IMG/VR virus record: IMGVR_UViG_3300036828_000149
Location: 1-22,798 of that record
Origin: a virus
DNA: 22,798 bases
Reading direction: 5' to 3' (one strand)
Positions 9,306 through 22,798 of the stretch are shown here, in pieces (position 1 is the stretch's first letter; each line of letters starts with the position of its first letter). The notes beneath the pieces are model-generated. The model ran no database searches and was not told the DNA's origin. It saw only the letters and a program-made list of their open reading frames with translations. The position numbers were made by a program, and so were the translations under genes.

Positions 9306-11132
9306 GTGGCAGTTAATTACAAACCAATCCCAGATGCTCAGCCTCAGCTAGCGCCAACTCCGTCTATCCGTGAAGACGTTCCTCAGGTACGGTTTTCCGG
9401 AGCGGTTGGTGAAGCCCTTCAGTACGTTGGACGTGCTGGGTACGGTGCTTTAGGGCAGGCTACGGAAGACGTAGGAAGAGCCTTTGACAGTCTGGGTAAG
9501 AACGTTGAAGGCGCAGGACGAGAAATCTTCCAACGGGCAATCGCCTTAAAGGAATTGGAGAGCAATAAGAAGGTCGACGATCTGGTCATAGCATACAATC
9601 AAAAGCAGACGGACTTGGGAGAAAAGTTCAGAAATCAGTATGGAGAGAAGGCTGGACCTGATGCCTTAACTGCTCACATAAATGAAAGTAAGAATCTCCG
9701 TGCTGGAATGCGGGCAGGGCTGACTCCATACCAACTGAATAGATTCGATGATGAAACCAGAGGAATATTTTCGGCTAACGCAAGACAAAGTCTCGGACAT
9801 TCTGCGGCTCAATTTAAACATTCCTTAATGGCTACTAATGAAGCTAAGATTTCTATGGAACAGGATGCGATGGGGAAGTCACAGACTGATGAGGAACTCC
9901 AACAGCATCATAATAAGATTGAGCGGCTTACAAGAGAAGGAGGAGACTTAGCTGGGAAGACTCCTGAGATACTGGAGCACGATTTGAATATGAATTTGTC
10001 TAAAGGTTTTGCTAGCTACATTTCTGCTTTGTCGGACAGAGATCCTACAAAAGCGATGCAATTGTTGATGGCCAAAAAAGATGAAATCATGAATCCATTC
10101 TTCGATAAACTTAAAGACGAGATTCAAGGTAAACTTGATGATAGGACCGTCCGTTTAGCAGCACAGGCAGCGGGGCAGGATCAAGAAGCAGACTTAGCAG
10201 ATAAGGTGAAAAAGGCTGAGAAAGAGGCTAGGAAGACCACTGACGATCCTAGAGTCATAGATAAAGCTATACGAAGGACTGAAGGTGAGCATAGTGAGTA
10301 TGAAAGGGAAAAATTTAATCGTCAGCGTAAAGCCAACGATATGATGGATGCATTCACTCACGGCAGGCTTAATCCAGAGGGAAAACTCCCGACTAAAAGA
10401 GAAGAGATAGATATCGATCCTAGGACTAAGCAAGCCTTTGACCTTCTAACAAATAAAGAGAAGGATGCGGTTGAGACGCAGCTTACTCGGAATTCCCTAG
10501 AACAATACGCTGAAACTCCCGATGAAGTCCAACGGTTCCATGATATCAGAGAGCGTAGCTACGACCCGGCGAACTATGAAGAATTCAGAAATCTTAGAAT
10601 TAATGGTGATCTTCGCCTTTCAGTAAGGCATCGGAACGCATTGCTTGACCGTAAGGATGAGATAGAGAAGCAAGGTATTAAGGCTATGGATAATCCGCAT
10701 GTCAAAAGAGCAGAAGGTATATTATTGAGTCAGGGGCTCATACCTGAAGTTATTCGGACTGATCGAGATAGTATGAATAGACTTAGAGGGGTTCTTCATG
10801 ATGAGATAGACTTGCAGCAGAAATTACAGAGACGTGAAATGACTGATGGCGAAATACGATCACTCGGTTTACGAATTTTAGCAACGGATCCAAATAGCGG
10901 AATGGATACTGGATGGTTTGGTAAGTGGTTTACAAAGCCAGCGTTTGAGACAATGAGCGAGGCGACTAAGAAACGTGTGGAAGACTATAAAAAGGAGGTC
11001 TCCGGTGCTACGGATGACGAAGCCATGAGGGCGATTGCGAATTCTGAATACCAACTGATGTTTGAGAAGTATTTTGGTAAGAAGAAAACTGCGCCATCAA
11101 AGGCAGGACCTGCCGCACCACAGAGTCAATAA
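9306..11132 (+). CDS. Internal virion protein C-like (T7 gp15-like), 608 aa
   Basis: It starts at GTG 9306, seven bases after AGAGGA at 9293-9298, which overlaps the upstream TAG. The N-terminal 40 residues are Pro rich (PIPDAQPQLAPTPSIREDVP). The rest is long, charged and alpha-helical (GRAFDSLGKNVEGAGREIFQ, AIALKELESNKKVDDLVIAY, then a Lys/Glu-rich helix around residues 295-345). No enzymatic motif or membrane segment is seen. T7 gp15 (747 aa) builds the internal core and then the periplasmic part of the ejection tube. Location between gp14-like and gp16-like proteins and helical content make the equivalent role the best reading. Sequence similarity cannot be shown by eye. The stop overlaps the next ATG by one base. 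Confidence 0.72.
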   Translation: MAVNYKPIPDAQPQLAPTPSIREDVPQVRFSGAVGEALQYVGRAGYGALGQATEDVGRAFDSLGKNVEGAGREIFQRAIALKELESNKKVDDLVIAYNQKQTDLGEKFRNQYGEKAGPDALTAHINESKNLRAGMRAGLTPYQLNRFDDETRGIFSANARQSLGHSAAQFKHSLMATNEAKISMEQDAMGKSQTDEELQQHHNKIERLTREGGDLAGKTPEILEHDLNMNLSKGFASYISALSDRDPTKAMQLLMAKKDEIMNPFFDKLKDEIQGKLDDRTVRLAAQAAGQDQEADLADKVKKAEKEARKTTDDPRVIDKAIRRTEGEHSEYEREKFNRQRKANDMMDAFTHGRLNPEGKLPTKREEIDIDPRTKQAFDLLTNKEKDAVETQLTRNSLEQYAETPDEVQRFHDIRERSYDPANYEEFRNLRINGDLRLSVRHRNALLDRKDEIEKQGIKAMDNPHVKRAEGILLSQGLIPEVIRTDRDSMNRLRGVLHDEIDLQQKLQRREMTDGEIRSLGLRILATDPNSGMDTGWFGKWFTKPAFETMSEATKKRVEDYKKEVSGATDDEAMRAIANSEYQLMFEKYFGKKKTAPSKAGPAAPQSQ

Positions 11133-14100
11133 TGGCTGATGAACAGGATCCAATACTAGCTAGAGCCCTAGCCAATAGAAAGGCTCAGACTCAAGGCCGA
11201 GTTATTGACAGCCTTGACGCTGACCCTGAGAAGGCTGCGACGGCATCTAAGCTAGGGAATGATACTGGGGCTGATCCGAACGTAATCTATCATAACTTCG
11301 ACGATGTTATGAGAGAGCATCAAAAAGCTCTTACGAATGGAATTATAGAAAATAGTCCACCTCTACAGGAATATGTCAACTCTCATCCCCTTGCCGCTAA
11401 AGTGAGTAAAGATGATTGGGGAAATCTGTCTAAGCTTATGGATGTCCTTGGGTCTACTCCTCTAACCAGACCACTGGCCCAACTTGGCAAGTCCCCAGCA
11501 GGGAGAGATATCGTTAGTTCTTTATCAGGAGAAATGCCAGGGGTAGGGCCTATTGTCAGTGGGACTATAGAAAGAGCTAAGGAGGGCTTTGGCCAAGAGC
11601 CTGTGGGATATAGGGATCCATGGATTGAGGCTCTGCATTTAACCCCAGAGGCAGAGGCACAGTTCAAAGAAACCAGGTGGATGACTCCAGGGAAGCCGTA
11701 TTTCTTTCAGCGACCCACTGACCTAGCGACCCTATGGTCACTTTATGAATTTGTTACCAGAGCTTCTGTTGGTGGCGCCGCTGGTGGGATTGCTGGTTTC
11801 TTGGGTAGCACTCTTGTGGAGCTTGGTATGGAGCCGGCTACGGCTGCAAGTGGCATGAGAGACGTGCACGCTGTATCTGAGATAGTTTTACAGCTACTAC
11901 TTGGCGGTCTAGGGCCCAAGGGTGCACGACGAGCGACTATGGGTGTGTCTGGAGCTTTAGAATCACCGGCCCTCAGAGGGAAGCATCCAGAACTTTTAGA
12001 GTTGGAGAAAGAGACTGGCCTTAAGACTAAGGCAGACTATAAAGTCCTTCAAGAATGGAATAAGCTTGGAGATTCAGTCGAACGGGCCCTTCCGTACATC
12101 AAAGAGGGCGAAGAACCTCCTGTACGTTTAGATCCAGACATCGACAAAATGATTATGGATGACTCTAAAGAGGGGCTTAAGGAACTCAAAGAACAGGAGA
12201 AAGCCGCCAATAAGACAGTGACTAAAGAACGTGATCGAGATATGTTAGAGTTAGCTATATCTAAAGCTACCAAAGGCCAGAATGTTGGGTTGGAATGGGA
12301 CGGCGTTAAGGCTCTCTACGGTGATAAGCTTCCGGAGCCTGGAGATGGACTCTTAGGAGACATTCCTGGAGTAGCGGAGAAGTTTCAGGCTTCTATGACA
12401 TCAGGGGAAGATATTACAGTCCCGAAGTCTCAATGGCTCTCTAAAGTAGAAAAGGAGGTTTCTGAAAAATTGGACGGATTCGTTAAACATCGCCCTGGGG
12501 CTCTGTCGGAACGGGAGATCGAATCTCTTGGTAAGGCTGAAGAAATTCCGCCTATAGAGCCAGGAGTATCTAATTGGCAGAATGTCGTGGATGGAGTTCG
12601 ACGGGCAGCTGGGTTGGAGCCTTTGCTTAAGAAACTGCCAAAGGCAAGAGAACCAACCCAACTCGAACTCGGCGTCACACGTCAAGAAGACATCCCTCTC
12701 TTTAAGCCAGGGGCTTTGATGCCCAAGCGGATGTACGATCAATATTTCAACCAGATGAATAAGATCTTTGACGCAGATAAAGAGAAAGATTTAAGGGTAG
12801 CTGAAAGAGAAGAACGCCGAAGGCAGATGCCGGAATGGACCGAAAACTACAAGAAAGAACAGGAGAAGGTTGTTGAAGACATTAAAAATTCACGTCCTTT
12901 TAGGTTCAGTGATTTCTTCCGTAACGGAATCCTTAACGGCGAAGATGTGGGAGTCAAGCCAAGGATCCGTACAGATTCCTTAACTCCAGAACAGCGAGCC
13001 GCCATTCCTGCTAAGTTTCAAGCTAAGAATGGAATAGACCCTGACCTCATTGCTAGGGCTTTAGACTACCAGACAGGGTCCGAAATGATTAACGATATAA
13101 TAGCTTTCGAAGAGACGAGAAAGGAGGCTGGAGATAAGCCTGGGGAGTTCTTTAATCGGTTGGTTAAGAGAGAAACAGACAGGAGAATGGAAGTCAAATA
13201 TGGAAAGTTCGAAGAGAACGTCGCTGCCGCTGCTAGAGAGCATGTGATTTCCCCCACTGCCTTTGACCTCGTTCATCAAGAGGTAATGGCTTTAGCGATG
13301 CGGGCAGGGCAGAAGATGCCTATGAGTAAGGACGATCTTAGGCAGCAGGCATATATAAGGTTTACTGATTCGATCGCCAGTGAGCAAGATCTATCTAAAT
13401 ATGTTGGACTCTTAGGGAAGGCAGGCAGAGCAGCTGAAGAGGCTTGGCTTAAAGGTGATGTTGTAGAGGCGTTTAAGCAGAAACAACTACAAGCCCAGCA
13501 TATGGCCGTAGCGGCGCTAGCGAAAGAGTTTCAGAAAGAACAAAGGGCTTGGGATAGAGGAAAGAAAGCACATTCAGGGGAAGAGGATAAGAGCCTCCCT
13601 CAAGAGTATCAAAACTGGCTGCATGATCTTTATTACAGAGTTGGAGAAACCACCAAGCGTTCTTTGGATACGGTCAAGCAGAGCATCCAAGACCATGAGC
13701 ATAAAACATTTCAAGAATTTGCTGACAAGAAAAACATGAACGGCCTTCCTGTAGGGGCTGGAGAATACGGAGAAGCCTATACTCCAAAGATTCCGATTAC
13801 TCCATTTCTCTATGATCAGCCATTCAACAAGACTATGGATAAAGTCACAGTAGGAGAGTTTAGAGCAATTAACAACACTGCGCAAGCCTTGATTAAACTT
13901 GGTAGAGGAGAAAAGCAAGTCCTCGTAGGCGATAAGTTGACTATGTTTGAAGAAGCAAAAAAGGAACTTTTAGACTGGGTAAACCAGACACATCCAGACA
14001 AGCCATTTATACACAATCCAACAGCTTGGCAGAAGAGGAGAAAGCAACTTGCTACCATGAGAGTTGGGTTAATGCAGTTAGAGCATTTCTTTAGAATGGT

Positions 14101-16147
14101 TGACGCGGAAGATCCTAGAGGAATAGCCTCAAGGTCTCTTATTTATCCGCTTATGGAGGCTGGGAATAAGGTCGATACTACGGGCAGAATGTACGCTAAG
14201 ATATTACAGACTCTAGATAAGTTCACGACTGACTTCGAAAAGCCAGTTCCGAACACTGTCTTCCATGATCCTTCCACCTTTGACAAGGATCCAAAGACAG
14301 GGAGGCGGAGTCTTAAACAAGGAACCCCACTCTACCTTGAGATGAACAGGGAGAATATGTTAGCTGTTGCAATGAATTGGGGAAATAAAAGTAACAGGGA
14401 TGTTTTAGTTAGAGGTCATTTAGTCTCAGAAGCAGATGTTCAAGGTTGGCTCGACACTCATATGACAAAGCAAGATTGGCAATTAGTTAAAAGTCTTGGG
14501 GATATTATGGCTAAGCTCCAGAAGGCAGAAGATAGAATGACTATGGATACGAATAATAGTGTCTTAGATAAGCTTATATTAGGAAAAGTCCAAACTAAGC
14601 TTGGAGATAAGCTTGTAGAAATGGATGGATGGTATTGGCCAGTTAAGTATCATCCAGATTTTACCAAAGGGAATGCTGCTGAAGGGATACTAGGAGATAA
14701 ACCTTTCTTTAGAGTCCAAACAGAGCACGGATGGACGAACGCAAGAACAGGATACGCCGCACCTTTAGACTTACACATGAGCAACGTAGGGGATATTATT
14801 GCTAGAAGGATAAGACATACAGGATTGAGCCCAGCCATTGCGCAAGTCTCAAAACTGATGTTGGACGGAGACTTCATGGAGGCCATCAATAGGAAGTTTG
14901 GATCCCATTATTCTGGTCTATTTGAGAAATACTTAAAAGATATAGCCGGTCAAGGAGGGTATACGTCGCCGGCTGCTAACGTTGGTAATAGACTTGGGCA
15001 GCATATCCTAGCTAATACAGTATCTACACTTGTTGGTTATAACCCAGGAACCATAATCAAGCATAGCTTAACAGCCTTTGGACAGAGTTGGAGGGAAGTT
15101 GGGACAGGGCCTTTTCTAAAAGCTATGATTGATCTATATAGAACTAGTAAAGTAGTTCAGGATTCGAACGATAAATTCATAACAGAAGGCGGTCAGGTAG
15201 GGACGCTTGATTGGAAAGGATCAGATGAAATCAACCGCCGTCCACAACACTGGCTGCAAACTCTCGGTGGCGCTTCAGAAATGCTCTTTCATCCAAGCAA
15301 ACTCGAGGCGGCGAGACGGCGAGGTATGGAGCGTAGGACTTGGATGCTTGCTACCATAGATCAATGGATATCCAAGGTAACCTGGCTAGCTAAGTACCGA
15401 ACAATTAACGAGGAGAATCTTGGACCAAAGGGAATGAGTGTAGAAGAGGCTCATTTGGACGCAGTTCGGATGGCCGATCGAGCAGTGAGGAACACTCACG
15501 GATCTACGATGGTTGCGGCAAGACCGGAGTTTATGCGATCGAATAATGCTATGGTACAGTCGTTAACGAGCTTGGGCTTATTCTATAATCACATCCTCAA
15601 TCGCTGGCTAACAATGGGGCCTAGAGGCGTTAGGGCCTATGGAAAGTGGAAGCGTGGGGAGCCTGTGGCAGAAGATGTTAAAGACTTGACGAAGGATGTT
15701 TTGATGTATGTGGTCTTTCCGTCTGTTGTTCACGAGATAATGGATCCGACTTGTAGTTCTGAAGAATGGAATAAGAGCTGGGGTACGTGTACTGGCATGA
15801 CTCTGGGAGTGGCTGGTCTTTCACCAATATTTCTAGCAAGAGACATGGCTCATGCTGCCGTAACTGGCCATGATCCAGGTTTAGGGATGTTTGGGTCGGC
15901 GGCTAAGCCAGTGACGGATATGCTTAAGGATATGCAGCATATTGGAGATAAGAGATACCTTGGAAGGCAGGTTGAAGATGCTAACGCTCTGCTTGGGGTT
16001 TCTAAAGGATTGGCTAGCAGACAGGTAGGTAGGTGGGAGAAGTACTTCATCAACACTATGTTAGCCCAAGACCATCTACCAAGAGGTCCGGGAGAGGCTA
16101 TGAGAGTACTGAGATTTGGGGTCACTAAGGAAAGGAAACACAGATAA
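11132..16147 (+). CDS. Large internal virion protein (T7 gp16-like position), 1671 aa
   Basis: The largest gene in the window. Residues 1-100 (LARALANRKAQTQGRVIDSL, then DPEKAATASKLGNDTGADPN) carry an Ala-rich repeat often seen at the start of large podophage ejection proteins. A Gly/Ala hydrophobic stretch at 211-231 (SVGGAAGGIAGFLGSTLVEL) and another at 250-260 could insert into a membrane. A very long charged helical body follows. The C-terminal 150 residues have further hydrophobic helices (VLMYVVFPSVVHEIMDPTCS and LGVAGLSPIFLARDMAHAAV) with a Cys pair near residues 1545-1557. T7 gp16 (1318 aa) forms the inner-membrane part of the ejection conduit and has a transglycosylase domain. I see no such domain here. 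The TAA shares its last A with the endolysin ATG. Confidence 0.75.
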   Translation: MADEQDPILARALANRKAQTQGRVIDSLDADPEKAATASKLGNDTGADPNVIYHNFDDVMREHQKALTNGIIENSPPLQEYVNSHPLAAKVSKDDWGNLSKLMDVLGSTPLTRPLAQLGKSPAGRDIVSSLSGEMPGVGPIVSGTIERAKEGFGQEPVGYRDPWIEALHLTPEAEAQFKETRWMTPGKPYFFQRPTDLATLWSLYEFVTRASVGGAAGGIAGFLGSTLVELGMEPATAASGMRDVHAVSEIVLQLLLGGLGPKGARRATMGVSGALESPALRGKHPELLELEKETGLKTKADYKVLQEWNKLGDSVERALPYIKEGEEPPVRLDPDIDKMIMDDSKEGLKELKEQEKAANKTVTKERDRDMLELAISKATKGQNVGLEWDGVKALYGDKLPEPGDGLLGDIPGVAEKFQASMTSGEDITVPKSQWLSKVEKEVSEKLDGFVKHRPGALSEREIESLGKAEEIPPIEPGVSNWQNVVDGVRRAAGLEPLLKKLPKAREPTQLELGVTRQEDIPLFKPGALMPKRMYDQYFNQMNKIFDADKEKDLRVAEREERRRQMPEWTENYKKEQEKVVEDIKNSRPFRFSDFFRNGILNGEDVGVKPRIRTDSLTPEQRAAIPAKFQAKNGIDPDLIARALDYQTGSEMINDIIAFEETRKEAGDKPGEFFNRLVKRETDRRMEVKYGKFEENVAAAAREHVISPTAFDLVHQEVMALAMRAGQKMPMSKDDLRQQAYIRFTDSIASEQDLSKYVGLLGKAGRAAEEAWLKGDVVEAFKQKQLQAQHMAVAALAKEFQKEQRAWDRGKKAHSGEEDKSLPQEYQNWLHDLYYRVGETTKRSLDTVKQSIQDHEHKTFQEFADKKNMNGLPVGAGEYGEAYTPKIPITPFLYDQPFNKTMDKVTVGEFRAINNTAQALIKLGRGEKQVLVGDKLTMFEEAKKELLDWVNQTHPDKPFIHNPTAWQKRRKQLATMRVGLMQLEHFFRMVDAEDPRGIASRSLIYPLMEAGNKVDTTGRMYAKILQTLDKFTTDFEKPVPNTVFHDPSTFDKDPKTGRRSLKQGTPLYLEMNRENMLAVAMNWGNKSNRDVLVRGHLVSEADVQGWLDTHMTKQDWQLVKSLGDIMAKLQKAEDRMTMDTNNSVLDKLILGKVQTKLGDKLVEMDGWYWPVKYHPDFTKGNAAEGILGDKPFFRVQTEHGWTNARTGYAAPLDLHMSNVGDIIARRIRHTGLSPAIAQVSKLMLDGDFMEAINRKFGSHYSGLFEKYLKDIAGQGGYTSPAANVGNRLGQHILANTVSTLVGYNPGTIIKHSLTAFGQSWREVGTGPFLKAMIDLYRTSKVVQDSNDKFITEGGQVGTLDWKGSDEINRRPQHWLQTLGGASEMLFHPSKLEAARRRGMERRTWMLATIDQWISKVTWLAKYRTINEENLGPKGMSVEEAHLDAVRMADRAVRNTHGSTMVAARPEFMRSNNAMVQSLTSLGLFYNHILNRWLTMGPRGVRAYGKWKRGEPVAEDVKDLTKDVLMYVVFPSVVHEIMDPTCSSEEWNKSWGTCTGMTLGVAGLSPIFLARDMAHAAVTGHDPGLGMFGSAAKPVTDMLKDMQHIGDKRYLGRQVEDANALLGVSKGLASRQVGRWEKYFINTMLAQDHLPRGPGEAMRVLRFGVTKERKHR

Positions 16148-17704: not shown

Positions 17705-17887
17705 ATGCCTGACACCAAAGCTATGCCAGACTCAAACTGTAGTACCTGTATGTATTGTGTAGATAGACAGGGCTTGGAATGCCATTTTGACCCACCTACA
17801 TACATACCCGGTCTGCATGAATGGCTTGGCCAATGGCCAAGGGTATTAGATACGGATTGGTGCGGCCATTATCAATTAAAGTCTTAA
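17705..17887 (+). CDS. Small cysteine-rich, probable zinc-binding protein, 60 aa
   Basis: The ATG follows the upstream TGA with no gap. Five Cys (12, 15, 18, 26, 53) occur in the pattern CSTCMYC, ECHFDPP and a terminal DWCGHYQ. This matches a widespread small protein type in phages and bacteria (CxxCxxW...C.R.PP...W....DWCGEF), which I take to be a zinc-ribbon-like fold of unknown function. It is the last gene of the rightward unit. Its TAA (17885-17887) interlocks with the opposite gene's stop, and a 17-base palindrome lies inside it. It might bind nucleic acid or protein, but nothing visible decides this. Confidence 0.7.
   Translation: MPDTKAMPDSNCSTCMYCVDRQGLECHFDPPTYIPGLHEWLGQWPRVLDTDWCGHYQLKS
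17825..17841. repeat. 17-base perfect inverted repeat near the convergent junction
   Basis: CTTGGCCA-A-TGGCCAAG is an exact 8-bp inverted repeat around one central base, able to form a six-pair stem with a CAATG loop. It lies in the cysteine-rich gene, about 43 bases before the stops of the converging transcription units. No U-tract follows on either strand, so it is not a standard intrinsic terminator. It could be a protein-binding site, a weak bidirectional attenuator, or chance plus codon content (WLGQWP). Confidence 0.5.
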
Positions 17888-19131
17888 GTCTCAAAAGTCC
17901 GTACCCCCTGCTTATCGATATCTGTGGCTTTGATTATCCTTGCAGCTTGGAGAGCTTCCATTATGTATTTAATATGCATTGCCCCGATCCTCTCTCTGAT
18001 AAAGTTGTAGATTAGATACTCCTTTACCTTTCCGTTCATCCTAACAAAATGGGCGACCTCATCCATAACTCTGCTGTCTGGGACTATTGCGCCTTCTTGA
18101 AAGATTTTTGGCATCAGTCTCTCTGCTTCAATTAGCCAAGTCATTGCTTGATTGAAGTCTTCGACTTCTAGAGTGAGGTCGTTGGAACGGTCAACTGAGC
18201 ATACCATAGCTAACTTTAAGAGATGCGCCCATCTACGACTGTTGTAGTGACGGAGTTTTGGATGTGACGGTTCAGGCGCCAGCTTCATTATCTTCCAGTC
18301 ATGCATTGCCTTTCCGAAAGCTTTAGAGGCTTTGAACTCTCCTTGAAGTTTCGCTATCATCTTTATGTCGTGGATTAAATCTGTAGGTTTAGTCTTAAGT
18401 GGTTCGTTGAATACATCAATTAGGGGACGGTCTTCTGAGTAAACCATTATCACCCGACTCATTAGACCTTGGTCCCAGACGTAGTCTTTAAGGGTGTGGA
18501 TTAGATTTGAGGGGGTTGAGCCAGCTAGGATAGAGAGTTGCGGCCGAGCGATTTTGATACGGATGTTCGCTACTCTGCGACCTTCTGAATAAGGATTAAC
18601 GTCGTAAAACTCTACTAGGACAGACACAAGACTGGAGTCGTACTCATGCATAAAGGCAGAGAATTCATCTGCTGTTACTACTAGGGAGTTGTATTCTATT
18701 GGCGGATCTGGGAGTTGAGGGAGGAATCTCTTAGCTTCATTCATAAAATCCGCAAGAGAAGCACGAGTCATAGAGGTTGCGCCAAAGAAGATTTCAGGTA
18801 CGTTTTCTCTAACGAGATTCGACGCAGACATAATCGCTCGGGACTTCCCAATCCCAGCATGACCAACGAGAAAGATGTACATATTTGGATAGAGGAATCC
18901 GCCGGTATTCGCCCATACCTTCTGTTCAAGAGTAGCTGAGATCATCGAGATCGCAGACCACTTCCTGAAGAGTTCGGCGGATTCAAGATTTGACGTATGC
19001 TCGACGAACCGTCCTATCCAAGATGTGCACTTCCGGAGTCCTTTTCCGTTTATCTTTGGGTCTGTAGCTTTTGAGTCCGTCTGGGTTTGACTCGCCGAAG
19101 TCGCCCCAGTTCCAGCCTGTTTTGCAGCCAT
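17884..19131 (-). CDS. Replicative ATPase/helicase-like protein (DUF3987-like), 415 aa
   Basis: Residues 38-100 carry the family opening: WIGRFVEHTSNLESAELFRK, then YPNMYIFLVGHAGIGKSRAI, a Walker A with GHAGIGKS at 90-97 (Lys96). A Walker B-like LVVTADEF lies at 150-157, a sensor-like ILAGSTPSN at about 201-209, and a probable arginine finger in QGLMSRVIM (Arg226). The C-terminal third is helical. DUF3987 proteins are P-loop NTPases of phage and plasmid replication modules, thought to act as helicases or primase-helicases. No primase motif is seen. The first 37 residues are low-complexity Ala/Thr/Ser/Gln and overlap the polymerase's 3' end by 149 bases. ATG 19131 is the only Met before the conserved part, though its Shine-Dalgarno is poor. 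Its TAA shares TTAA with the opposite gene. Confidence 0.78.
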   Translation of the reverse strand: MAAKQAGTGATSASQTQTDSKATDPKINGKGLRKCTSWIGRFVEHTSNLESAELFRKWSAISMISATLEQKVWANTGGFLYPNMYIFLVGHAGIGKSRAIMSASNLVRENVPEIFFGATSMTRASLADFMNEAKRFLPQLPDPPIEYNSLVVTADEFSAFMHEYDSSLVSVLVEFYDVNPYSEGRRVANIRIKIARPQLSILAGSTPSNLIHTLKDYVWDQGLMSRVIMVYSEDRPLIDVFNEPLKTKPTDLIHDIKMIAKLQGEFKASKAFGKAMHDWKIMKLAPEPSHPKLRHYNSRRWAHLLKLAMVCSVDRSNDLTLEVEDFNQAMTWLIEAERLMPKIFQEGAIVPDSRVMDEVAHFVRMNGKVKEYLIYNFIRERIGAMHIKYIMEALQAARIIKATDIDKQGVRTFET

Positions 19132-20488
19132 ATGGGATAGTCAGCGTTCTGTCGTGGCGGAGCGGGATCTCGTGATGGAGTAGGGATTGGATCTTTGGGA
19201 CGATTTCATCTTCTCTCTCCTCGGGATATTGGATTAGGATGGAATCATGATTCTGCATTAAGAGTTGACAGATCCCTGCTCGCCATGCTTGTAGCATGCC
19301 TTTATTTACTATGTCTGATAGAGAACCTTGTGGATCGTAAGCGATAGCTTCTCTGAGGATGTCTGAGGAATCTCTGCGGCCGAAGAAGTGTCTGAGCCTT
19401 CCTGTAAGGCTGGTTAGCTTGCCGTAAGAACGAATCTGAGTCTCTACCCAAGCGTGCCAGTTTAAGTGGGCGGGGAAGGCCTTGAAGTATTTTTGTTGAA
19501 AGTCGGTGATGATGCTAAGATCAGTCTTAGTCTGACTGGACATTGTCCCCGGTTTGCCGCCATAGTTAGTTCCGTGCCCAAGCTTCTTACACATGAATCG
19601 TCGAGAGTAATGTCTATAATACGGGCGCTCGGCGAGATCTCTGTCACCTTCCAGGGTGTTGGTCCAATTGAGATCGGGCCAGCATATCCTGGCCACTGCT
19701 GTATGGAGGTCTCCGGACTCACATGCATCCAAGTAACGCCCGTCTCTGAAGAGGTTCCATTCGATTGCTCCGACAACACGGCTTTCTCCTTGTTCTGCGT
19801 CAAAGTTAGCGAGCTTCATTCCTGGGTCGGCGATGAAGATTGATCTGAGGGATTCTTCGATGTTTTGTAGGTTTCCGCCAGTACCAAACTCAGATAAACT
19901 AGAAGAAAACCTACCGGTGCTAGTACCAGCAATATTATAAGATGTACGTATTCTGCCGTCATAATCTACCTCGGTTTTTAAGACTTCGATTCTCTTCTTT
20001 AAGTCTCTCATTGCGGTCATGTGATTGATGACCGGCTGAGCAATGAGATAGGCTTCCATCTTTTCTAGGGCGGCACGGTTAGCAGTTAGGCGGCCCTCTT
20101 TGGTGCGGATTTCTGGGATTTTGAAGATGTCGTAGAAGAGTGTTTGTAGACAGTCCGAAGATTTCCAATTGAAACCGATAAATCCTGTTCCCTCCCTAAC
20201 TATTCTTTCAAGATTAGTCTCTAATCGATCTAAGCGGGTGAACATCTCTTCAACGACTTCTGCTCGACGGGCAAGATCGATTTTTACTCCTTTGATCCGC
20301 ATGTCGAGGACTGGCCCTTGAAGAGCTTTAGAGAAGGCGTAAGTAGTTGAGGTCTCAGAGCCTAGTTGAGGGAGCAAGGCTTCCAAGACTTCAGCTGTTA
20401 TGCAGCAGTCTAGGCCATTGTAGACCCAGTCCTTTTCAGCGCCTTTGAGTTTATCAGGGACTGTAATATTGGTGTGGATGATTTTCAT
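18983..20488 (-). CDS. Family A DNA polymerase, polymerase domain plus Exo III fragment, 501 aa
   Basis: Polymerase motif A is FDAEQGESRVV (Asp230, Glu235, Arg237), motif B is RFMCKKLGHGTNYGG (Arg297, Lys301, Tyr309) and motif C is QNHDSILIQYP (His414, Asp415). TGRFSSS and NLQNIEESLRSIFIADPG also fit family A. The N-terminus holds YNGLD (Tyr23, Asp27), the Exo III motif of the 3'-5' exonuclease, while Exo I and II lie in the preceding gene. So this chain lacks a complete proofreading site of its own. Its ATG overlaps the upstream TAA as TAATG, so the two proteins are probably made together and associate. After the usual family end (TGWNWGDF) there is a 37-residue basic extension that overlaps the ATPase gene. 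It should copy the phage genome. Confidence 0.88.
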   Translation of the reverse strand: MKIIHTNITVPDKLKGAEKDWVYNGLDCCITAEVLEALLPQLGSETSTTYAFSKALQGPVLDMRIKGVKIDLARRAEVVEEMFTRLDRLETNLERIVREGTGFIGFNWKSSDCLQTLFYDIFKIPEIRTKEGRLTANRAALEKMEAYLIAQPVINHMTAMRDLKKRIEVLKTEVDYDGRIRTSYNIAGTSTGRFSSSLSEFGTGGNLQNIEESLRSIFIADPGMKLANFDAEQGESRVVGAIEWNLFRDGRYLDACESGDLHTAVARICWPDLNWTNTLEGDRDLAERPYYRHYSRRFMCKKLGHGTNYGGKPGTMSSQTKTDLSIITDFQQKYFKAFPAHLNWHAWVETQIRSYGKLTSLTGRLRHFFGRRDSSDILREAIAYDPQGSLSDIVNKGMLQAWRAGICQLLMQNHDSILIQYPEEREDEIVPKIQSLLHHEIPLRHDRTLTIPYGCKTGWNWGDFGESNPDGLKSYRPKDKRKRTPEVHILDRTVRRAYVKS

Positions 20489-21498
20489 TAGTCTTCTCTT
20501 TTAATCGTAGTCTTCTTCTCTCTCATTTGCTTCCAGGCACCTTCGTCAGTGTAGATACTCCCTAAAAATCCCAAACTCTTCAGGCTTTCTGGCTGAAGAG
20601 TATGATGCAGCAGCATCGTATCTTCCTCTGCTCCATACACACTTATCTTCAAGGACCTTTTAAGGAATGCAATGTCGTATAACCCGTTCTGAAAGACTTT
20701 CGGCGTTGGTCGTCCCAATATGTCTCTAATAGCACGCCAAACCTTACGTGCTGTTGGTGCATCAGGCCAATAAGGTCGTCCTGCTCTTCCTGAGATAACC
20801 CACGGAATGACGAGACTAAGACTCGAACTGGGAGCAAATCCAATACAAGTAACGATTGCTCCAGTCGTCTCAATGTCGACCGCAATTCTTTGAGCGGGTT
20901 TGAGGTAGGCCTCATCGAACTCATAGATATCCTCCAAGGTTGGTTCGATCCAGATCTGACGTTCAGGGCGACGGATTTCTGGATAGAGACTTTCACGACT
21001 AGCTTTCAGGAGGTCAACCACGACAATTGGCCGTAGACTCCATTGTTTAAAGATAGCAGCTGGGTGATAGGTAGGGAGAACCTTAAATCCAGTAATAGTG
21101 TGAGTAGAGAGTTGGGCGGTTCCTCTAAGCTTAGAGATAGTAGTCTTTCCCAATAGGGCCCAGCTTGCGGTGTTTCCGAAGGCTACGACTACGTTTGGGT
21201 TAGTCTCCTCTATTTCGTCTGCGAGCCGCTCTAGTTCTCCTCTGAATTCCTTACGGAGATAGCCTTTAACCAAGGCTGGGTACCCATCTACTCCTTCTCC
21301 TTTAGGACCACACAAGGCGCTTACATCATTCTTTGGCGGTCTGAAGTTAAACACGTTAGTAAGGAAGCATTCGTACCTGCGGATTCCTGCTTCCTTTAAC
21401 AGTTGATCCAAAAGGTAACCAGTTGGGCCCACAAACGCCTTCCCTTCTCTCTCTTCCACTTCACCCCAAGCTTCGCCTAAGAGAAGGATCTTGTTCAT
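20488..21498 (-). CDS. Uracil-DNA-glycosylase-like domain fused to DNA polymerase 3'-5' exonuclease (Exo I and II), 336 aa
   Basis: I start at ATG 21498, which puts MNKILLLGEAWGEVEEREGK directly at the fold's first strand. A TTG at 21534 would add 12 residues overlapping the upstream gene. Residues 1-170 match alpha/beta glycosylases near families 4/5: GEAWGEVEE (8-16), GKAFVGPTGYLLDQLL, TNVFNFRPPKND and the C-terminal YHPAAIF (144-150). The Fe-S cysteines typical of family 4 are absent. Residues 200-320 are DnaQ-like exonuclease: Exo I AVDIETTG (Asp208, Glu210), Exo II VFQNGLYDIAFL (Asp275) and EEDTMLLHHT. The chain stops before Exo III, which opens the next ORF. Glycosylase-like domains fused to phage polymerases are known (SPO1). 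Here the polymerase part is a separate chain. Confidence 0.82.
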   Translation of the reverse strand: MNKILLLGEAWGEVEEREGKAFVGPTGYLLDQLLKEAGIRRYECFLTNVFNFRPPKNDVSALCGPKGEGVDGYPALVKGYLRKEFRGELERLADEIEETNPNVVVAFGNTASWALLGKTTISKLRGTAQLSTHTITGFKVLPTYHPAAIFKQWSLRPIVVVDLLKASRESLYPEIRRPERQIWIEPTLEDIYEFDEAYLKPAQRIAVDIETTGAIVTCIGFAPSSSLSLVIPWVISGRAGRPYWPDAPTARKVWRAIRDILGRPTPKVFQNGLYDIAFLKRSLKISVYGAEEDTMLLHHTLQPESLKSLGFLGSIYTDEGAWKQMREKKTTIKRED

Positions 21499-21511: not shown

Positions 21512-21982
21512 TTAGACCTTAGCCGTCTTGTCAATGTTGGCGAAGATCATTTCTCCGTCGTCTGATGGGGTGTGTTTGACGTGGCCCCAGAACTGACGGC
21601 TGGGTACGTCTTGCATCATATCCCTTATTTTTCTTGGGCTGCCGTCTTCATCTTCTTCGTCGATATCGAGGTCGGTGAGAAACTTCTTCAGCCGGTAAAG
21701 TGAGTCATCCGTGTGGTAGAATGTAATCCGAAGGGACCGATCCCGTAGTGGAACGACCTCGCCGGAAGCCTTGGTTAGGCTGGCTTTAAGGGCATCAGCG
21801 TCTACGTCGTCGCTAGCCTCTAAGGCCTTACAGGTATATTCTGAGAACTCTGTCCCTTTTCTTGTTGATTTGTCTATTCGTGGAAGACCTACGATCATCC
21901 AGAGATAGGTACCTTGTGGTAGAGGTTTTGGACGGGAGATTTCGGTTGCTGGTGTGTCGAGGATATCAGAGAAGTTTGGCAT
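21512..21982 (-). CDS. Candidate single-stranded DNA-binding protein, 156 aa
   Basis: Residues 19-55 (KPLPQGTYLWMIVGLPRIDK, then GTEFSEYTCKALEA), 79-105 (LRDRSLRITFYHTDDSLYRL) and 128-150 (SRQFWGHVKHTPSDDGEMIF) look like strands of an OB-type barrel with a helix between. The PxGTY opening and kGTEF strand recur in small phage proteins next to recombination ATPases. It has an acidic stretch (DLDIDEEDEDG, 104-114) but no acidic SSB-type tip at the end (FANIDKTAKV). It lies one base after a Sak4-like ATPase and before the polymerase genes, the context expected for an SSB partner. I cannot exclude another DNA-metabolism role. Confidence 0.6.
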   Translation of the reverse strand: MPNFSDILDTPATEISRPKPLPQGTYLWMIVGLPRIDKSTRKGTEFSEYTCKALEASDDVDADALKASLTKASGEVVPLRDRSLRITFYHTDDSLYRLKKFLTDLDIDEEDEDGSPRKIRDMMQDVPSRQFWGHVKHTPSDDGEMIFANIDKTAKV

Positions 21983-21983
21983 T

Positions 21984-22798
21984 TTACAGTCTCTTCAGTT
22001 TGAGTTGAGTCGGTTTCTGCTGTGTCTTGGGTGGTCCTCGAAGAACTTCAAAGAAGTCTGCTAGCCCAGTTTCGACAGGGTATTCAGGGAGCATCGCAAA
22101 CGGCTTTGGATTCTTTAGGTCTATCATAGCGGTTGCGGCTGTTTGGATTACACGTTTACCTCCTGGTTTGGTTCGGCAAAGGGCCACAGAGTTGAAGTAT
22201 GCAGGAATCTGTGGACTCAGAGCTGCTCCTACGGCAGTTGGGTATCCTTTCCTAGTACCATCTTCGTTATCGACATATCGAATGTGTGTGTTAACGATAA
22301 CGTTGGTACGGAAAGATTCGCTTGTAAGGAGAGCGATAACTTTCTCGATTGAGTCTTGGGCATCTTTGTATACCGCTCTCTGATCATACTTGCCGTCTCG
22401 AGAACGAGGAACAAGAGGTTCTCTGAAGTCGAACGCTGCGTCAGAGAAGAAGGTAAGAGAGTCGAGCACGAAAATGCAGTCCGGTCCCCATTCAGCTGGA
22501 ACTCCCAAGTCAACTTCGGTGCCGTCATCAGTTTTATATTTCCATCGGTCAAGCATTTTGATGCCGTCGATAAAAGCTCTTGGGAGGCCGTCAATAATCG
22601 GCCCGTCAGGGGATGCTTTTCGTTTATCTCTAAGAGTTCGATACTCGACGTTTTGTAGTTTGTCTGGCGAGTCAATGTATACGAAGACCTTAAGCGGCTC
22701 GAGCCCATTATCATAGTCTAGGATCCGTAGTTTGTAGCCTGCTTTGACAAGAGAGGCGAGGGCTCCTGTCTTTCCAGAGCCTGGGTCGCCTTCAACGA
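21984..22798 (-). CDS. RecA-like P-loop ATPase, probable Sak4-type annealing protein (5' end off the window)
   Basis: The open frame runs through the window edge, so the upstream end is missing. An internal ATG at 22556 is not the start, because conserved motifs lie before it. The first visible residues are VEGDPGSGKTGALASLVKAG, a Walker A (GDPGSGKT), followed by RILDYDNGLEPLK. Walker B is CIFVLDSLTFFSD (Asp112 of the 270 visible residues). VIVNTHIRYVDN (near residue 170) and the KGYPTAVGAALSPQIPAYFN strand fit the RecA-like fold of Sak4 and related AAA_24 phage ATPases, which anneal single strands with an SSB. Lys/Gln-rich residues end it (KPTQLKLKRL). It is followed after one base by the candidate SSB. 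Confidence 0.8.
   Translation of the reverse strand, partial: VEGDPGSGKTGALASLVKAGYKLRILDYDNGLEPLKVFVYIDSPDKLQNVEYRTLRDKRKASPDGPIIDGLPRAFIDGIKMLDRWKYKTDDGTEVDLGVPAEWGPDCIFVLDSLTFFSDAAFDFREPLVPRSRDGKYDQRAVYKDAQDSIEKVIALLTSESFRTNVIVNTHIRYVDNEDGTRKGYPTAVGAALSPQIPAYFNSVALCRTKPGGKRVIQTAATAMIDLKNPKPFAMLPEYPVETGLADFFEVLRGPPKTQQKPTQLKLKRL

Follow-up and report, generated by a model that had tools for sequence, protein, structure and literature searches.

The question raised by this locus is whether two adjacent open reading frames, A and B, encode the two parts of one DNA polymerase whose proofreading site is divided between two proteins. The window, meaning the whole stretch of DNA that was analyzed, is a 22,798-base IMG/VR virus record with a replication cassette on the minus strand, in the order Sak4-like ATPase, 156-aa protein, ORF A, ORF B and DUF3987/primase-type protein (Table 1). 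Isolated phages gave zero nucleotide matches to the whole window. Between the structural genes and an amidase there is also a 1671-aa ORF (11132-16147) that matches phrog_9880 (function unknown) and is possibly an internal virion protein.

Table 1. Features of the replication cassette and of the split polymerase in the window.
Feature	Position	Strand	Remarks
ORF A, UDG-like domain and first half of the 3'-5' exonuclease domain	20488..21498	-	336 aa, ATG start
UDG superfamily domain	20998..21498	-	A residues about 1-167; E9, N48, H145 kept 50/50
Exo I motif, Asp208-x-Glu210	20869..20877	-	invariant 62/62
Exo II motif QNGLYD, Asp275	20674..20691	-	invariant 62/62
Conserved C-terminal tail of A, WKQMREKKTTIKRED	20491..20535	-	A ends ...TTIKRED (stop)
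TAATG stop/start overlap (fission point)	20486..20490	-	
ORF B, Exo III motif and whole family-A polymerase domain	18983..20488	-	501 aa
Exo III motif YNGLD, Tyr23-x3-Asp27	20408..20422	-	invariant 63/63, also in the compared fused relatives
Pfam DNA_pol_A domain	19103..20245	-	B residues 82-462
Polymerase motif B (O helix), RFMCKKLGHGTNYG	19559..19600	-	His at the E. coli Phe762 position
DUF3987/primase-helicase-like protein (phrog_14296)	17884..19131	-	downstream in the same cassette
156-aa protein without a family match	21512..21982	-	upstream; precedes A in most relatives
Sak4-like ATPase (phrog_124)	21984..22796	-	upstream; cut by the window end

All motifs of a DEDDy 3'-5' exonuclease (Exo I, D-x-E; Exo II, D; Exo III, Y-x3-D) are present, and they are spread over two chains; neither A nor B carries one continuous exonuclease domain in a single polypeptide. 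An earlier note on this DNA had described a break after Exo II and before Exo III, with a TAATG joint, and the break, the joint and all five residues (D208, E210 and D275 in A, Y23 and D27 in B) are where it placed them. The overlap sequence in the window is GACTAATG. The note closed the feature at 19900, a position that falls inside ORF B, which extends to 18983.

The UDG-like domain described for the first half proved real. ORF A matched Pfam UDG with 76.9 bits (cut-off 24.3) over residues 13-167, counted from an alternative TTG start at 21534 (the ATG is at 21498). The match of A to DNA_pol_A_exo1 was weak and truncated (20.2 bits, below the cut-off of 23.6), as expected for a protein holding half a domain. 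Similarity to family 4 enzymes (1vk2, 1ui0) is seen in the UDG domain, which retains the family-4-type motif residues (GEA, TNV, HPA). The four-cysteine 4Fe-4S set of family 4 is absent from A, which has no N-terminal Cys pair, and the only conserved cysteines of the domain are C63 (96%) and C44 (80%). Of the proposed tie between uracil recognition and proofreading, the motif residues are thus in place and the Fe-S cysteines are not, and uracil recognition is predicted from the conserved residues. The domain might cut uracil or merely bind it, and any role we assign to it is putative. Plasmid-borne UDG relatives span just half of A, and the annotated ones are UdgX-like proteins.

ORF B matched Pfam DNA_pol_A (PF00476) with 109 bits (cut-off 34.3), and its palm and finger residues are conserved (D230, R297, K301, Y309 or F, and D415). 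The position equivalent to Phe762 of E. coli PolA, H305 in B, is His in 61 of 61 informative sequences of the split clade and also in the unsplit Mel-JY34, ctMlz233 and EBPR podovirus 3; a study of virioplankton sorts this position into Phe, Tyr or Leu (PMC6302109).

We searched IMG/VR proteins with A, B, the family alignment, Kuura and the unsplit Mel-JY34 protein as queries. Both parts were found at at least 192 loci (IMG/VR and phage records, among the matches listed). The window's clade contributes at least 162 of these, corresponding to 104 distinct junctions from IMG/VR contigs, Caulobacter phage Kuura and one MAG contig. Among the matches listed, to which all counts of split and unsplit members refer and beyond which rarer unsplit members could exist, every one of the 104 junctions is broken at the same homologous point, which places the split far beyond chance. 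Whether relatives share the split had been suggested as a check; all of them do, and no continuous polypeptide was found in the close relatives. The clade is large and consists mainly of soil phages that are uncultured, and the cut is ancient and clade-wide, an extent that the earlier note did not anticipate.

The sole isolated phage with the same split, among the matches listed, was Caulobacter phage Kuura (OQ067476). Its proteins are about 38% identical to those of the window, and the order is 029 (UDG-exo, 'hypothetical protein'), two small genes that the window lacks at this point, and 026 ('DNA polymerase'). The Kuura paper names a DNA polymerase, with the glycosylase and exonuclease unmentioned (PMC9959647). 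One scan of bacterial genome contigs gave a single close relative, a 7.4-kb contig (L107) binned in a Terriglobia MAG; this may be a clue to the host or a contaminant of the bin, and it says little about the host.

Unsplit relatives include Mel-JY34, ctMlz233, vir526, EBPR podovirus 3, Tiera, SPO1 (with an intron) and Mel-like IMG/VR contigs, and the nearest ones sampled are Mel-JY34-like sequences. A tree built from 105 polymerase parts needs one change between the split and fused states, with 85 split rows on one side of a branch (SH-aLRT 95). Because this was a quick tree without bootstrap and with flagged long branches (Kuura, Mel-JY34 and the outgroups), we regard a single origin of the split as likely rather than proven.

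We consider it probable, from the sequences and the structure models, that A and B make up a two-chain proofreading polymerase that shares one exonuclease site. An ancestral single-chain UDG-exo-polymerase gene would have undergone one fission, in the loop that connects the helices of Exo II and Exo III. The products would since have been made separately, probably in a fixed order and with translational coupling where the genes abut, as at the TAATG here. The chains would then assemble, bringing D208, E210 and D275 of A together with Y23 and D27 of B in one two-metal site beside the polymerase, and A and B would be subunits of one replicative family-A DNA polymerase. Exonuclease activity of such a pair is to be expected from the sequences and the models. 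Of the earlier suggestion that one active site lies across two proteins, the invariant residues, purifying selection, the single family-A gene and the modeling all speak for it, and the assembly itself is a prediction.

The new ends created by the break are themselves conserved. A ends 13 residues past an invariant Trp-Lys, and its C-terminus reads TIK[RK][DE][DE] in 50 of 62 sequences. B begins with M[KR]II.T in most relatives, and the Exo III Tyr follows 22 residues later in the window. These ends (...TIKR[DE][DE] of A and M[KR]II.T of B) may now be conserved parts of a loop or of an interface. Between Exo II and Exo III, unsplit relatives have a linker of about 14 residues, and the two tails of the split proteins add up to about 33, a difference of about 19.

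To model the two parts as one enzyme, we used a relative (L024) in which A and B are in-frame with one TAA between them; the TAA was read as Gln, giving an 839-residue chain with the DNA unaltered. The AlphaFold2 alignment had 86 rows, made up of A alone, B alone and a few relatives that are read-through or naturally single-chain. The result was a complete Klenow-like enzyme with a pLDDT of 93.3 and a pTM of 0.90, values that apply to chains joined artificially through one residue and that describe AlphaFold confidence, which is not stability. In Foldseek comparisons the model aligned with nearly all of the Klenow fragment (645 columns with 8oo6, TM on the target 0.75) and scored 0.72 against phage G20c PolI (7r0k). 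The break lies in a low-confidence loop (blocks of 61 and 66, neighbors 86-92). The tails are the least reliable part of the model, because in most A-only rows the final residues were misaligned by MAFFT. Modeled alone (50 rows), A of the window was confident over the UDG domain and Exo I/II and dropped to a pLDDT of 35-48 from residue 291 on, and residues 291-320 had a pLDDT of 86-96 in the joined L024 model. This loss of confidence fits a domain that is completed by B; part of the gain may stem from the alignment, as the joined one was deeper and contained single-chain relatives.

Of the 104 junctions, 39 overlap or abut, one has a gap of 115 bp, and 64 have gaps of more than 120 bp (134-1071 bp). 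The overlapping or abutting junctions are ATGA-type, TAATG, TGATG, TAAATG and others. The gaps of more than 120 bp are mostly filled with unrelated ORFs on the same strand. This cargo comprises about 50 unrelated small families, those with Pfam matches including HNH endonucleases, a GH25-type enzyme and DUF3102, and its presence switches about 23 times on the tree. As for a link to homing endonucleases, HNH-type genes lie in several junctions and none lies in the window, and they may be later arrivals. In one relative, a GH25-type (lysozyme-like) gene is located between the polymerase halves (L104, 6107-6820). Gaps of more than 120 bp were found at 62% of the A/B junctions, at 54% of the junctions between the 156-aa gene and A (51 of 94 loci), and at 2% of the junctions between B and the DUF3987 gene (2 of 83). 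Because the gap upstream of A varies alike, the cargo between A and B is not special, and the break behaves as an ordinary gene boundary, a second point beyond the earlier note. The comparable gap upstream of A (54% against 62%) also rules out the A/B boundary as a special insertion hotspot.

The cargo bears on a special case of the two-chain polymerase, in which proofreading would be detachable: B polymerizes alone as a complete exo-minus enzyme, A joins or leaves and completes the exonuclease site, the A:B ratio sets fidelity, and the UDG domain serves as a uracil sensor. If this were true, changes in the A:B ratio could let the phage adjust how often it mutates, or proofreading could be linked to the detection of uracil. 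Such an arrangement would be in keeping with the separate genes and with cargo whose repeated gain and loss could shift A:B ratios. However, the likewise variable gap upstream of A means that the cargo need not concern that ratio, and we judge this special case, drawn from gene arrangement, to be unlikely.

It is also conceivable, and in our estimate quite unlikely, that the exonuclease is vestigial, B being a proofreading-deficient polymerase and A being kept solely as a uracil-recognition protein. In its favor, B contains an entire polymerase domain of its own, and the motif residues of the UDG domain persist in A. Against it, none of the Exo I, II and III residues varies among the 62 A and 63 B sequences, although a vestigial domain should have decayed across the divergence that separates the clade from Kuura. 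The exonuclease part of A has a dN/dS of about 0.09-0.22 in close pairs, indicating purifying selection; the Exo III stretch is too short for a firm value. Conserved exonuclease residues report past selection, which is distinct from activity in vitro.

We analyzed 18 longer relatives (25-52 kb), of which 17 exceed 40 kb and the completeness of which was not estimated. Each has one DNA_pol_A gene; in one record the match is broken into two segments within an open frame of equal length. An RNase_T/DnaQ-type exonuclease gene or a second family-A polymerase gene was absent from 18 of 18, and PolB and PolIII-alpha were absent from all 16 that were checked for them. Provided that the phage relies on an enzyme of its own to proofread, the split domain is the sole candidate found.

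We regard it as very unlikely that A and B are fused in the infected cell by recoding or splicing (a frameshift, read-through, an intron or an intein). Five distinct junctions have an in-frame B start directly after the stop codon (TAAATG or TAAGTG), and read-through could fuse those. In general, however, the abutting junctions use TAA, TGA and TAG in several relative frames, and 64 of the 104 junctions contain unrelated coding sequence. With frames, stop codons and gap lengths all varying, programmed frameshifting or read-through is out as a general explanation. No Rfam intron reached the gathering threshold in the nine loci searched. No intein fragment was found at the C-terminus of A or the N-terminus of B, and with A ending so soon after the Trp-Lys and B starting so shortly before the Exo III Tyr there is no space for one, in agreement with the earlier note. 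That note had also doubted a simple frameshift, and the sharing of the split by all 104 distinct junctions bears this out.

Faulty sequencing or assembly, or a lesion that arose recently in a single isolate, has next to no chance of being the explanation. Nothing beyond the general risk of metagenome contigs speaks for it, and the split relatives refute it: a second contig (IMGVR_UViG_3300036785_000363; L034/L035) has an identical junction, with A 100% and the first 76 aa of B 99% identical, and the distinct split junctions include that of an isolated phage genome.

The two-chain proofreading polymerase appears to be a natural, long-lived example of one catalytic site that two proteins share, and the enzyme concerned is probably indispensable to the phage. 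The split is present throughout a clade and also in Kuura, which can be cultured in the laboratory. A and B offer a ready-made split polymerase for fidelity studies, and the separability of proofreading from polymerization, and their recombination in trans, become directly testable. Annotation pipelines miss half of such enzymes, A of Kuura having been deposited as 'hypothetical'.

Split phage polymerases are a known class. In the literature that we covered, mostly open-access, no paper described a polymerase broken within the exonuclease domain, and the unusual position of the cut, after Exo II and before Exo III, sets the present split apart. The single-chain UDG-exo-PolA proteins (SPO1 gp31, Mel-JY34 of Microcystis, ctMlz233 and vir526) have the same domain order and motifs as A and B, but in one ORF that runs across Exo II and Exo III. 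Kuura 029 and 026 share the split point of the window. Other UDG-PolA relatives are cut elsewhere, inside the polymerase domain or after Exo III (L005, 3657-4189; L194, L195 and L200; L203, 2986-3138), and because the places differ, fission of this gene looks recurrent. The PolI of Thermus phage G20c has extra sequence in its exonuclease domain, the SbetaalphaR motif, as an insertion in one chain rather than a break (PMC9629493). From the text of that paper, the motif seems to sit on the stretch that separates the Exo II residue from those of Exo III, where A and B are broken, and this region therefore seems tolerant.

In the OM43 phages MEP401 and MEP402, a family-A polymerase is likewise encoded in two ORFs, placed around a small gene in an arrangement common to most of that phage group (PMC10580990). 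There, unlike in A and B, the break is inside the polymerase domain, the proofreading domain is on one chain, and no UDG domain is reported. The T4-like Aeromonas phages 25 and 44RR likewise have a two-chain replicative polymerase, gp43A and gp43B, but of family B and without a UDG domain. In phage 25 the two proteins co-purify and have polymerase activity, and the split NrdA of Aeh1 is fully active (PMC2988022); among experimental precedents for A and B, these come closest. The gp43A/gp43B split has been described in few phages, whereas the split between A and B is mapped over a whole clade.
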